DNA of 35,525 nt from contig JANTHE010000006.1 of assembly GCA_024762585.1 (NCBI GenBank), positions 1 through 35,525 on the forward strand. Direction: 5' to 3'. The notes beneath the pieces were generated by a model. The model was not told the DNA's origin, ran no database searches, and saw nothing but the letters and a program-made list of their open reading frames with translations. This document shows, in pieces, positions 16,431-25,429 of the stretch. The stretch's first letter is position 1. Each line of letters begins with the position of its first letter. This DNA is from Sulfuricurvum sp. GTDB taxonomy: Bacteria; Campylobacterota; Campylobacteria; Campylobacterales; Sulfurimonadaceae. A program made the translations under genes and the position numbers.

Positions 16431-17783
16431 ATGCGTCACTCCCTCAATGAAAAATGTGCCGTCGTCGGCATTTTCAACCACACAGAAGCCTCCAAGCTGG
16501 CCTATTTTTCACTGCATTCGCTGCAGCACCGCGGTCAGGAAGCGGCGGGCATCAGTTCCGGCGACGGGGAGCGGTTGCATACCATCAAAGACCGTGGTCT
16601 GGTCATGCAGGTGTTTAACGAGCAGAAGCTCTCCACGCTCAAAGGACATATGGCCATCGGCCATACCCGATACTCCACGGCGGGGGATGACTCCATTCTC
16701 GATGCGCAGCCGGTACATGCCAATTATGACCTCGGTCAGATCTCTATTGTGCATAACGGCAACCTGACCAACGCGCAAGAAGTCAGAAACGCACTCATAA
16801 AAGAGGGGGCGATCTTTCAAAGTTCGATGGACACGGAAAACCTGATTCACCTGATTGCTCGAAGTAACCAGCAGAAGCTGAAAGATCGCATCACGGATGC
16901 GGTCAAGCAGATTGAAGGGGCCTATTCGCTGGTCTTTCTCAGCCGCAGCAAGATGTTCGCGGTGCGTGACCGGTTCGGTTTTCGACCATTGGCGCTTGGG
17001 CGCATGGGCGAAGGGTACGTCGTAGCTTCCGAGACCTGTGCCTTTGACCTGATCGGTGCGACCTACATTCGCGATGTCGAGCCCGGCGAGATGCTGATTT
17101 TCGAGAAGGGAAAGGCGCCGCAGTCGGTGAAAATTTTCGATGCCGTGCCCAAACACTGTATTTTCGAGTATGTCTATTTTGCACGTCCCGATTCGGAAGT
17201 CTTCGGCAAAAACGTGTATCAAAAACGTAAAAATATGGGTATCGAACTGGCAAAGGAGCAGCCGGTTGAGGCGGACATGGTCGTTCCTGTACCCGATGGG
17301 GGTGTTCCGGCGGCTATCGGCTATGCGCAAGAGAGCGGCATTGCTTATGAAATGGGCATTATGCGCAACCACTATATCGGACGTACTTTTATCGAACCGA
17401 CGCAGGAGATGCGCGATCTTAAAGTGAAAATGAAGCTTTCGCCCATTCGCGAACTGATCGAGGGAAAGAGGATCATAGTGATCGACGATTCTATTGTGAG
17501 GGGGACGACGAGCCGTCGTATCATTCGCATGCTGAAAGAAGCTGGTGCGGCTGAAGTACATATGCGTATTTCAAGCCCGCCCACGACCGATCCCTGTTTT
17601 TACGGAGTCGATACACCGAACAAAGAGAAGCTGATCGCGGCCAATATGAGTGTTGAGGAAATCTGCCACTATATCGAGGCTGATTCGCTGGCATTTTTGA
17701 GCAATGAGGCGTTGATGCGTTCGGTAAAAGCCGAAGGGGATGAGTATTGTACGGCTTGTTTCACCGGCGAGTACATCGTATAG
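16431..17783 (+). CDS. purF: Amidophosphoribosyltransferase
   Basis: AVVGIFNHTEASKLAYFSLHSLQHRGQEAAGI, GHTRYSTAG, IIVIDDSIVRGTTSRRI (PRPP motif); AAGGAG upstream of ATG 16431. Confidence 0.96.
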   Translation: MRHSLNEKCAVVGIFNHTEASKLAYFSLHSLQHRGQEAAGISSGDGERLHTIKDRGLVMQVFNEQKLSTLKGHMAIGHTRYSTAGDDSILDAQPVHANYDLGQISIVHNGNLTNAQEVRNALIKEGAIFQSSMDTENLIHLIARSNQQKLKDRITDAVKQIEGAYSLVFLSRSKMFAVRDRFGFRPLALGRMGEGYVVASETCAFDLIGATYIRDVEPGEMLIFEKGKAPQSVKIFDAVPKHCIFEYVYFARPDSEVFGKNVYQKRKNMGIELAKEQPVEADMVVPVPDGGVPAAIGYAQESGIAYEMGIMRNHYIGRTFIEPTQEMRDLKVKMKLSPIRELIEGKRIIVIDDSIVRGTTSRRIIRMLKEAGAAEVHMRISSPPTTDPCFYGVDTPNKEKLIAANMSVEEICHYIEADSLAFLSNEALMRSVKAEGDEYCTACFTGEYIV

Positions 17784-17791
17784 GAATTTCA

Positions 17792-18757
17792 TTGCAACCC
17801 AAACAGATATACACCTATGGAAGCTACCTTCAGGAACGTTACGGCGAGAAGGTGTTCAAAGTCCCTGTTTCTATTTCCGGATTTACGTGTCCGAATATAG
17901 ATGGTACGGTAGCGCGGGGAGGCTGTACATTTTGTGAAAACGATTCATTTAGCCCGAGTTTGGATAAGGTGCAGCCGCTTAAGGGATTCCATCTGAACCT
18001 GGACAGCACGGAGAATCCTTTTTTGACCAAGCAGCTTGAACAGCTCGAACTGCAGTTCGGAACACTCTCCAGACGGCTTGCACGTGAATACGGCGCCACG
18101 AAGTTCCTGGTCTATTTTCAGTCGTTTACCAACACCTATGCTCCTTTTGAGACACTCAAGGCGCTGTATGACAAAGCACTCTCTTTTGACAATGTGGTCG
18201 GCCTCAGCATCGGGACCCGTTCGGACAGTATCACCGAGGAGACGCTGGAGTACCTCGCCACACTTTCCAAAACAAAAGAGATCTGGGTGGAGTACGGCAT
18301 TCAGTCCATCTATGATGAAACGCTCGAGCGCATTAACCGAGGCCATGACAGTGCCAATGTCGAACGATGGATCAAAAAAAGCAAGGCGGCGGGGCTCAAG
18401 GTCTGCGGGCATCTTATTTTCGGTCTCCCGGGCGAGACGCAGGCCATGATGTTGGAGACGGCGCAAAAAGCGTACGAGTGGGGGATCGATTCGGTCAAGT
18501 ACCATCCGCTCTATGTTGTCAAACGCACGGCGCTGGCCAACGAATATGCGCGGGGCGACTTTACGCCGATTTCGGAAGCGGAGTATATCGATACGCTGGT
18601 AAAAGCATTGCAGATGAAGCCGGAGCATGTTTCAGTGCAGCGCATCACGGCCGGCATCGACGATGATTCGCTGATTGCGCCGCAGTGGTGCCGGGATCGG
18701 AATGTGCAGGTTCGGCATATTAATGCGGCGTTGAAGCAAGTTGGGATGAAGTATTAG
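17792..18757 (+). CDS. TIGR01212-type radical SAM protein
   Basis: YTYGSYLQERYGEKVFKVPVSISGFTCPNIDGTVARGGCTFCEN; CHLIFGLPGET. TTG start at 17792 avoids a large overlap with purF. Confidence 0.85.
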   Translation: MQPKQIYTYGSYLQERYGEKVFKVPVSISGFTCPNIDGTVARGGCTFCENDSFSPSLDKVQPLKGFHLNLDSTENPFLTKQLEQLELQFGTLSRRLAREYGATKFLVYFQSFTNTYAPFETLKALYDKALSFDNVVGLSIGTRSDSITEETLEYLATLSKTKEIWVEYGIQSIYDETLERINRGHDSANVERWIKKSKAAGLKVCGHLIFGLPGETQAMMLETAQKAYEWGIDSVKYHPLYVVKRTALANEYARGDFTPISEAEYIDTLVKALQMKPEHVSVQRITAGIDDDSLIAPQWCRDRNVQVRHINAALKQVGMKY

Positions 18758-18767
18758 GTTCTTTTTG

Positions 18768-18950
18768 TAAAGCTACGCTTTGTTTGTTCCCCTTCTTTTT
18801 CGCTTGTCCGAAAAAGAAGCCGAACTGGGAAGAAAAAGGGACAATTTGCTGTCGCATGCACAGTTCGTTTATTTCGGGTTATGCTACGGGTGCGAACGAT
18901 GTGCTATGCATGAAGTATAGGTTTATATTTCTGTAAGGATGATTTGTCAT
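18768..18950 (+). repeat. Dispersed intergenic repeat, copy A (~183 bp)
   Basis: TAAAGCTACGCTTTGTTTGTTCCCCTTCTTTTTCGCTTGTCCGAAAAAGAAG...GAAGAAAAAGGGACAA...CTGTCGCATGCACA...TTCGTTTATTT; long match to 24696-24878. Confidence 0.85.
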
Positions 18951-18957
18951 CCTTGCC

Positions 18958-18999
18958 GGAACACGGAACACGGAACACGGAACACGGAACACGCAACAC
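18958..18999. repeat. Tandem heptamer repeat (GGAACAC)5 plus GCAACAC
   Basis: Five perfect and one one-mismatch unit, ending 4 nt before the hisIE stop. Confidence 0.95.
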
Positions 19000-19002
19000 G
19001 CC

Positions 19003-19692
19003 TTATTTCGGTCGTGCCGCCTTCTCCGTGATGCCGCTCATACCGAAGCGGCGCGCCAACTCCTGTTTGATGCGGTCGGGTGAGATATTTTTGTAGCCCA
19101 GCGCCACGAGAACATGGTAAGTGAGGTCGGCGGCTTCGTAGATGATCTCCTCTTCGTCATCGTCTTTGACGGCGAAACTGAACTCTCCCGCCTCTTCCAC
19201 GACTTTCTTCAAGATCGTGTTTTCGCCCTTGCTCAGCAGCTTGGCCGTCCAGGAGGTGTCCGGATCGGCGTTTTTACGCTCCAGGATCGTGTGGTATAGG
19301 GTGTCGATGACGCCGTAGGCTGCCGTGGTATCGACCTCGATGCCCAGGGTCTCGTTCCCGCTGTCGAGTTCGGTAAAAAAGCACGACTTTCGGCCGGTAT
19401 GGCAAGCGACTCCCTCCTGTTCGACCTTGAGCAGCAGGGTGTCGTTGTCGCAGTCGATCATGAACTGTTTGATATGCTGCAGGTGCCCGCTGCTTTCGCC
19501 TTTTTTCCATAGCCGCTGCTTTGAGCGTGAATAGTAGTGCGCCAGCTTCGTCTCTAGCGAGCGCTGCAGCGCCTCGCGGTCCATATAGGCCATCATCAGC
19601 ACTTCGTTGCTCTGCGCGTCCTGTACGATGACCGGCAGCAGCTCCTGCTTTTGCCAGTCGACACGATCGAGTATCTCTTGCATGTTTTCCAC
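19003..19692 (-). CDS. hisIE: Bifunctional phosphoribosyl-AMP cyclohydrolase / phosphoribosyl-ATP pyrophosphatase
   Basis: DAQSNEVLMMAYMDREAL, YYSRSKQRLWKKGESSGHLQ, DCDNDTLLLKVEQEGVACHTGRKSCFF; C-terminal HisE domain. Confidence 0.95.
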   Translation of the reverse strand: MENMQEILDRVDWQKQELLPVIVQDAQSNEVLMMAYMDREALQRSLETKLAHYYSRSKQRLWKKGESSGHLQHIKQFMIDCDNDTLLLKVEQEGVACHTGRKSCFFTELDSGNETLGIEVDTTAAYGVIDTLYHTILERKNADPDTSWTAKLLSKGENTILKKVVEEAGEFSFAVKDDDEEEIIYEAADLTYHVLVALGYKNISPDRIKQELARRFGMSGITEKAARPK

Positions 19693-24263: not shown

Positions 24264-24698
24264 ATGAAGGTGGTAGTTTCTGCATGTTTGCTCGGTGAAG
24301 CATGCCGGTATGACGGCTGTTCAAAAAAAGAGGACCGCGTGCTCACTTTTGTAGAGGGTAAAGAGGTCATTCCTTTTTGTCCTGAAGCACCAGTGTTCGG
24401 AACGCCGCGCGGGCGCATCAGCGTTGTCGCGACCGAAGAGGGTATGTTGCGGGTGAAAAAAGATGCTGATGGCTCAGACGTGACCGAGGCGCTGATCGAA
24501 CAGACAGAAGTGTTGATAAAGGCGCATCCGGATGCAGACCGGATTATTCTCAAGGCCAAATCGCCCAGTTGCGGGATTGCGACGACGCCGATTCTGGATG
24601 AATCGGGGAATGAGATCGGCAAAGGCAATGGGGTGGCTGCCGATCTGCTGCTGCATGCGTTTCCTGATGTTGAAATTACGGATGAGGGTGGTTTTTAA
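24264..24698 (+). CDS. DUF523 family protein
   Basis: VVVSACLLGEACRYDGCSK, PFCPEAPVFGTPRGRISV, ILKAKSPSCG; typical DUF523. Confidence 0.92.
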   Translation: MKVVVSACLLGEACRYDGCSKKEDRVLTFVEGKEVIPFCPEAPVFGTPRGRISVVATEEGMLRVKKDADGSDVTEALIEQTEVLIKAHPDADRIILKAKSPSCGIATTPILDESGNEIGKGNGVAADLLLHAFPDVEITDEGGF

Positions 24699-24878
24699 AG
24701 CTCCGCTTTGTTTGTTCCCCTTCTTTTTCGCTTGTCCGAAAAAGAAGGGGAAGCGGGAAGAAAAAGGGACAAACGGCTGTCGCATGCACATTTCGTTTAT
24801 TTTCGGGTTCTGTTGTAGGTGGGGACGATGCGCCATGCATGAAGTGTAAGTTTATCTTGATTTAAAGATAACTTGTCA
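24696..24878 (+). repeat. Dispersed intergenic repeat, copy B (~183 bp)
   Basis: TAAAGCTCCGCTTTGTTTGTTCCCCTTCTTTTTCGCTTGTCCGAAAAAGAAGGGGAA...; contains a 16-bp perfect stem at 24715-24752. Confidence 0.85.
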
Positions 24879-24922: not shown

Positions 24923-25429
24923 ATGTTGGAAGTTGGAAAAGAAGCCCCGGAATTTTGTCTGCAGAATCAGGATGAGGTGGAGATCTGTCTGCGTGATCTC
25001 AAAGGCAAGTGGATTGTGCTCTATTTTTATCCCAAGGACAATACGCCCGGGTGTACCACCGAGGCGTGCGATTTTACCGAACAGCTGCCCGATTTTGAAG
25101 GCTTGAATGCGGTGATCTTGGGCGTGAGTGCCGACTCGCCCAAGGTGCATCGCGGTTTTATAGAGAAGCAGAACCTCAAAATCACGCTGCTGAGTGATCC
25201 GGAACATGCGATGATGGAAGAGTACGGGGTCTGGAGATTGAAGAAAAACTACGGAAAAGAGTATATGGGAATTGTTCGTTCAACGTTTATTATTGACCCT
25301 GACGGAAAGGTCGCCGCGGCGTGGGACAATGTCAAGGTGCGTCAGAAGCGTTCGAAAAACAAGGTCAAATATGAGATCGTTCACGTCGAAGAGGTCAAAA
25401 AGAAGCTTGAAGAACTGCAGGGAAATTAG
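24923..25429 (+). CDS. bcp: Peroxiredoxin, thioredoxin-dependent thiol peroxidase (Bcp)
   Basis: VLYFYPKDNTPGCTTEACDFTEQLPDFE; Prx catalytic motif. Confidence 0.93.
   Translation: MLEVGKEAPEFCLQNQDEVEICLRDLKGKWIVLYFYPKDNTPGCTTEACDFTEQLPDFEGLNAVILGVSADSPKVHRGFIEKQNLKITLLSDPEHAMMEEYGVWRLKKNYGKEYMGIVRSTFIIDPDGKVAAAWDNVKVRQKRSKNKVKYEIVHVEEVKKKLEELQGN

Follow-up and report, generated by a model that had tools for sequence, protein, structure and literature searches.

Intergenic repeats of a Campylobacterales genus with three matched arms and strict replication polarity: candidate pseudoknotted intrastrand triplexes

Described triplex motifs and the repeat pair

The closest described counterparts of the repeats reported here are the potential intrastrand triplex (PIT) elements of Hoyne and Maher and the class II motifs of ITxF (Holder et al., 2015, PMC4666352), in which a pyrimidine arm, a purine arm and a mirror purine arm lie on one strand; these motifs are intergenic and multicopy and follow the purine-motif triplet code. 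As summarised in the latter paper, the Hoyne-type definition calls for perfect triplets of >7 nt with loops of 0-10 nt, and ITxF class II for loops of 1-6 nt. The BoxC (TM-ECO) elements of E. coli, with the consensus CCCTCNCCC N3-6 GGGNGAGGG N3 GGGNGAGGG, are intergenic, G/C-rich and of class II order, and clustering nearer the origin has been reported for them in K-12 (PMC4666352). The same source attributes the stability of the purine motif to G-G-C triplets and reports that in vivo footprinting in E. coli revealed no stable triplex for a related GC-rich motif. Two other groups of bacterial repeats are relevant, namely the REP and REPIN elements with RAYT (PMC2817692, PMC3733652), which are short, intergenic and form hairpins, and the AIMS, 8-bp sequences whose orientation tracks replication (PMC5993296).

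The window analysed here, 35,525 nt in length, is contig 6 of the draft genome G000 of a Sulfuricurvum species (1.97 Mb, 221 contigs). It had been predicted to hold two repeats on the same strand, and both were found where expected and in one orientation. Copies A and B align over 18764-18949 and 24692-24878 with 84% identity across ~187 bp (E 1.4e-53), and with 91% identity in the initial 111 nt. The elements and their neighbours are as follows, the two genes flanking copy A being named from sequence only.

17747-18757, + strand: radical-SAM-like gene upstream of copy A
18764-18954, + strand: copy A, whole element (5′ mini-hairpin, predicted triplex-pseudoknot core, 3′ domain, 3′ hairpin)
18769-18781, + strand: copy A 5′ mini-hairpin, AAAGC-TAC-GCTTT
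18792-18801, + strand: copy A arm a, pyrimidine, CTTCTTTTTC
18804-18809, + strand: copy A loop segment b, TTGTCC
18810-18819, + strand: copy A arm a′, purine, GAAAAAGAAG, Watson-Crick partner of a
18829-18838, + strand: copy A arm a″, purine, GAAGAAAAAG, mirror of a′ and proposed reverse-Hoogsteen third strand
18839-18844, + strand: copy A segment b′, GGACAA, complement of b, predicted pseudoknot helix
18848-18934, + strand: copy A 3′ domain, beginning GCTGTCGCATGCACA, common to other G000 copies
18935-18954, + strand: copy A 3′ hairpin, AAGGATGA-TTTG-TCATCCTT
18957-18993, + strand: heptamer array (CGGAACA)n, directly 3′ of copy A
19003-19692, − strand: HisI/HisE-like gene downstream of copy A, convergent
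24264-24698, + strand: DUF523-like gene upstream of copy B, its stop codon overlapping the 5′ end of copy B
24692-24878, + strand: copy B, whole element
24720-24729, + strand: copy B arm a, CTTCTTTTTC
24732-24737, + strand: copy B loop segment b, TTGTCC
24738-24747, + strand: copy B arm a′, GAAAAAGAAG
24757-24766, + strand: copy B arm a″, GAAGAAAAAG, mirror of a′
24767-24772, + strand: copy B segment b′, GGACAA
24776-24878, + strand: copy B 3′ domain, beginning GCTGTCGCATGCACA
24923-25429, + strand: peroxiredoxin (Bcp-like) gene downstream of copy B

Copy A begins 7 nt beyond the stop codon of the radical-SAM-like gene (TAG, 18755-18757) and ends at about 18954, the end of an 8-bp hairpin (18935-18954) after which the heptamer array comes next. 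The stem proposed for copy B is indeed perfect, with 16 bp and no mismatch (TTCCCCTTCTTTTTCG / CGAAAAAGAAGGGGAA, loop CTTGTC, 24714-24751), and encloses arm a with its adjoining bases; 11 of these base pairs are retained in the interrupted stem described for copy A, and the bases taken as the opening of copy B do form the DUF523 stop codon (TAA, 24696-24698). The long hairpin of the original prediction is therefore real as a stem but accounts for only half of the structure, and the shared block GAAGAAAAAGGGACAA, recognised at the same time, proves to consist of a second purine arm that mirrors the first, joined to a segment complementary to the loop.

The repeats were sought in eight genomes of the genus (G000-G007, one per species, G004-G007 being complete) using a covariance model built from 23 cores, with 113 candidates scored per genome. 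Instead of the two copies originally noted, G000 carries 8 copies; G003 has 9, G001 has 2 and the complete genomes have 17, 17, 18 and 16 strong copies, respectively, counts that more divergent copies may escape, and no copy was found by this search in G002. The family is thus represented by 2 to 18 copies in most of the sampled genomes of this genus. The 5′ mini-hairpin recurs in most G000 copies and in both G001 copies, and the 3′ hairpin is perfect in one further G000 copy (C58) and one G001 copy (L069) but imperfect in the other G000 copies.

Anatomy and covariation of the core

Every core has the order GTTCC - a - b - a′ - CCGAACCGG (or close) - a″ - b′ - (G)GCTGNCG and is followed by a conserved 3′ domain of ~90 nt, giving a whole element of about 165-190 nt. 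Arm a′ and segment b′ are the reverse complements of a and b, respectively; a″ mirrors a′ and hence runs parallel to a. This places the third purine arm antiparallel to the purine strand, as in the code of purine-motif triplexes (A.A:T, G.G:C). Since a″ would finish at the loop end of the stem, b′ would be well placed for its pairing with the loop. In roughly ten copies of the genus the loop contains a 47-nt module with two TTTA-loop hairpins; the module is recorded at L004, L007, L069, L079 and L080, and its stems still pair in another genus (L080 versus G000). A consensus fold of the 3′ domains of G004-G007 yielded almost no conserved pairs, and a TCCGCT/AGCGGA pairing noticed on inspection of some 3′ domains was discarded because it is lost in others. 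The 3′ domains of these four genomes also contain a conserved TTGACA-like hexamer on the element strand, shortly before the domain end.

Among 79 copies the stem is CTTCTTTTTT, CTTCTTTTTC, CTTTTTCTTT, CTTCTTCTTT or TTTCTTCTTT and b is TTATCC, TTGTCC, TTGTAC, TCGCAC, TTGTGC, TTGCCC, TTGCAC, TCGTAC, TCATGC or another variant, and both nearly always occur with matching partners. In the 23 cores, 97.3% of cells are paired compared with 56-65% in slid controls, and six pairs are altered on both sides, three of them in the pseudoknot helix b:b′; none of 500 shuffles came up to the observed values for percentage paired, cells changed on both sides or covariation score. For 32 distinct cores, agreement is 309/320 for a:a′, 310/320 for the a′:a″ mirror and 170/192 for b:b′, none of which was equalled in 20,000 permutations, and triplets change jointly from T.A.A to C.G.G at three positions, although such counts overstate independent events because copies share ancestry and cores move as blocks. 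When b:b′ pairing was considered within stem classes, it was significant in one of the three tested (7/20,000 permutations), the two smaller classes giving 4065 and 1293 of 20,000 without significance. Copy count and covariance, either of which could have spoken against a family, returned many copies and compensatory changes.

The three-arm motif is accordingly a member of the published potential intrastrand triplex class (PIT, class II; PMC4666352). Copies A and B have the pyrimidine-purine-purine order and a mirror third arm of >7 nt without mismatch (10/10 Watson-Crick pairs and 10/10 mirror positions), and their loops of 8 and 9 nt lie within the PIT range and outside that of ITxF class II; copies with the 47-nt insert, with a loop of 55 nt, would fall outside the PIT range. 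The family differs from PIT and class II motifs in being A-rich rather than G/C-rich, in the b/b′ helix that would join the loop to the 3′ side as a pseudoknot, in its long conserved 3′ domain, in its strict replication polarity, compared with 13 plus and 10 minus motifs in E. coli MG1655 (PMC4666352), and in occupying fixed loci across species with core replacement. It shares triplex order, intergenic location and clustering nearer the origin with BoxC, but its A-rich cores do not conform to the BoxC consensus, and a pseudoknot segment is absent from the description of those elements. In contrast to REP and REPIN elements, the repeats occur in tens rather than hundreds of copies, are far longer and strictly polarised, and most genomes of the genus that bear them are without Y1 transposase; unlike the AIMS, they are structured, ~180 nt long, present in <25 copies and absent near the terminus. 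As far as searched, four features are new among the open-access literature, namely the pseudoknot helix with its covariation, the orientation by replication, core replacement at fixed loci, and the 3′ array.

The arm order is also that of an H-type pseudoknot, so that a structured RNA, whether a multicopy small RNA, as originally suggested, or an mRNA 3′-end element, has to be considered, in which an A-rich third loop would occupy the minor groove of the first stem. Such an RNA would fit the covariation of both helices, the origin-proximal position of the copies, often after a 3′ end, and the pairing of the two-hairpin loop module across genera, and the polarity would then reflect co-directional transcription of highly expressed RNA genes. 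RNA helices are expected to tolerate G-U pairs. Among 1264 paired positions, 1217 are Watson-Crick, 9 are G-T and 10 are A-C, so that the surplus of G-T over A-C by which an RNA would be recognised is missing. Moreover, a″ tracks a′ base by base, G included, a match that A-minor contacts do not need. No match to the window was obtained in Rfam 15 at the gathering level, and four relatives searched at E<=1 gave nothing above threshold, only miRNA and sRNA noise far below it, the miRNA matches on L094 being rejected as low-complexity noise. The small RNA of the original prediction thus receives backing neither from Rfam nor from the mismatch spectrum. None of the listed promoter-like or terminator-like sites overlaps copy A or B and, in the account given by PMC4666352, citing its ref. 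43, purine-motif triplexes do not form in RNA. Taken together, a structured RNA appears unlikely.

Loci, replication polarity and gene context

The complete genomes hold 68 copies at 19 loci, and 18 clusters are made up of orthologous copies whose flanks are also homologous, usually to either side; copy A itself has orthologs in four other species that share both flanks (cluster 4). More than one stem type is found between species at 15 of the 18 clusters. At cluster 15, for example, G004 and G006 have CTTCTTTTTT/TTATCC and G007 has TTTCTTCTTT/TCGCAC, each internally matched. The G006 copy at cluster 11 is a chimera that combines the hairpin of one type with the a″-b′ of another, a similar half-swapped chimera occurs in G005 at cluster 17, and two other G006 copies, those of clusters 1 and 15, are nearly the same throughout core, 3′ domain and heptamers. 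Because orthologous loci differ yet match internally, with a few chimeras, blocks are replaced between copies, most simply by gene conversion or template switching.

The 68 copies of G004-G007 fall into two segments, 122-947 kb, where all occupy the + strand, and 1954-2341 kb, where all occupy the − strand; the terminus-proximal ~40% of the chromosome contains none. The replication origin was placed by GC skew, sampled in G006, where the sign switches within 1.28-1.33 Mb and again close to coordinate 0. Flanks of all 68 copies show positive skew on the element strand, and the 8 copies of G000 all agree with this polarity as judged from the skew of their contigs. Since skew is positive on the element strand and orientation follows the chromosome arm, the element strand corresponds to the lagging-strand template. 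Even if the 19 loci alone are counted, leaving aside those confined to G000, full agreement under random orientation has a calculated probability of ~4 in a million. Gene direction does not explain the polarity, as coding DNA near the copies is not biased towards the element strand (180,873 bp, versus 208,272 bp on the opposite strand). The polarity of all placeable copies suggests that the structure is exposed on the lagging-strand template.

IS200/IS605-type elements insert into the lagging-strand template, which gives them strict replication polarity. The repeats might likewise be non-autonomous mobile elements of single-strand DNA, inserted by a single-strand transposase into this template, mostly fixed by now and homogenised by gene conversion, and a motif of this kind does form both inverted ends of ~560-bp units in Paraburkholderia caribensis. 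Yet 18 loci are common to species of the genus, with conserved flanks, and the Y1 transposase family PF01797 is present in only three of the eight genomes (G001, G002 and G004) and absent from G000, G003, G005, G006 and G007, several of which are copy-rich; this also ruled out a link to RAYT. No MITE-type terminal inverted repeats were seen at the ends of copies A or B, where inverted repeats are internal. Nor was a target duplication seen, the gap corresponding to copy B in five other species being occupied by other hairpin repeats and offering no clean empty site for comparison. A blastn search with the 187 bp against phage and plasmid records gave no match. Homogenisation between copies is supported; the simple mobile repeat originally envisaged is not supported for this genus, and we regard the transposition of a single-strand element as rather improbable. 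As to the content of the DUF523-Bcp gap, G004-G007 (L264, L265, L267, L268) carry a different, hairpin-rich repeat of ~350 bp, the inner part of which appears inverted in G004 and G005 relative to G006 and G007, and G003 retains a short hairpin remnant.

On the basis of codon-scored gene calls, single cases of which may be wrong, 57 of the 79 copies lie in convergent gaps, 16 in ‘−−’ gaps, six in ‘++’ gaps and none in divergent gaps. The 3′-end element of the original prediction therefore describes a frequent location, but with 16 copies beside the 5′ end of the upstream gene, 3′-end placement is a common and not a defining trait of the family. A bidirectional terminator or read-through barrier between convergent genes, with mirror arm and polarity as by-products, would suit this distribution but is highly improbable, as no T run follows the stem, no terminator-like site overlaps the elements, the matched a″ arm and the b/b′ helix are left unexplained and, despite the symmetry of a convergent context, no copy is inverted relative to replication.

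Heptamer arrays, a possible mechanism and occurrence outside the genus

Arrays of heptamers (CACTTAG, CTCTTAA, CGCTTAA, CTACCTA or CGGAACA) are found downstream of 21 of the 79 copies and upstream of none, and control flanks contained one period-7 run in 329 kb. Counted from the end of the core, most arrays in G004-G007 begin at +84 to +88, and those of copy A and of copy C34 in G000 at +100.

The reading that we favour, with a probability of about 0.55, is that single strands of these intergenic elements, exposed as lagging-strand template, fold into a purine-motif triplex with a pseudoknot, leading to polymerase arrest and to template switching between copies. Lagging-strand synthesis would expose the element strand and allow arm a to pair with a′, the mirror arm a″ to enter the groove of the stem (A.A:T and G.G:C triplets) and b′, next after a″, to pair with loop b as a pseudoknot. 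This structure would arrest a polymerase arriving from the 3′ side of the element. Slippage at the arrest could seed the heptamer arrays with their constant starting point on the 3′ side, and a switch of template to another copy could exchange the whole core at once. The side on which arrays lie would agree with slippage after stalling, because the lagging-strand polymerase would reach the 3′ side first.

The anatomy, the covariation, the lack of an RNA-like wobble excess and the polarity, as well as the fixed loci, the block replacement and the position of the arrays, are properties read directly from compared sequences. From these we infer that the triplex probably forms in cells, that it would stall replication and that the element may be kept for a replication-linked role rather than as a selfish passenger; the positions of the arrays and chimeras suggest stalling, slippage and template switching. 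Two points weigh against a stable triplex: the stems are A-rich and A.A:T is held to be weaker than G.G:C, and the E. coli footprinting cited above revealed no stable triplex for the GC-rich counterpart. A more ambitious version, in which a replication-polarised pseudoknotted intrastrand triplex on the lagging-strand template is selected for its three-dimensional structure and renewed by template switching between copies, is put forward tentatively, as possible rather than probable. If true, it would supply comparative-sequence evidence for intrastrand triplexes in living cells, with an architecture that recurs in other phyla. Independent evolutionary evidence on triplexes in cells comes from the joint change of the three arms according to the purine-motif code and from the constant use of the folding strand as lagging-strand template, and it makes the question testable with orientation and compensatory mutants. 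The fixed array start and half-swapped cores would also document, in nature, how polymerases slip and switch templates at a single kind of structure.

A strict purine-tract pattern, too strict to gauge spread, matched 23 places in six of 397 genomes, and its reversed control none. A contig search with a short pattern retrieved only AP10.010, from the same genus, and two chance matches without the architecture. Weaker relatives occur in G014 and G021, genomes of the same bacterial family, and in a second bacterial family, f6 (G104, G255 and G261); six copies of G104 and two of G261 obey the polarity by position when coordinate 0 is taken as the origin, with a skew in their short flanks that is mostly, not always, positive. 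Matched arms and b/b′ segments were also found in two viral-collection contigs (L234, L236) and in a Pseudoalteromonas chromid (L238). The ~560-bp unit of the Paraburkholderia caribensis chromids, bounded by the motif at both inverted ends, is present in tens of near-identical copies and looks recently mobile; in NZ_CP013104.1 (L247-L263), simple tandem repeats, hexamer-like as in (GCTTTC)n, lie outside several of these units. The likeness of these viral-collection, Pseudoalteromonas and Paraburkholderia occurrences appears to be one of architecture, that is, of matched arms with b/b′. In Pseudoalteromonas piscicida (NZ_CP074588.1, L242), a second long-hairpin block, GTTCGTTCTTTTTCGTCGTTTAAAAAGAATGAACG, is located just upstream of the motif.
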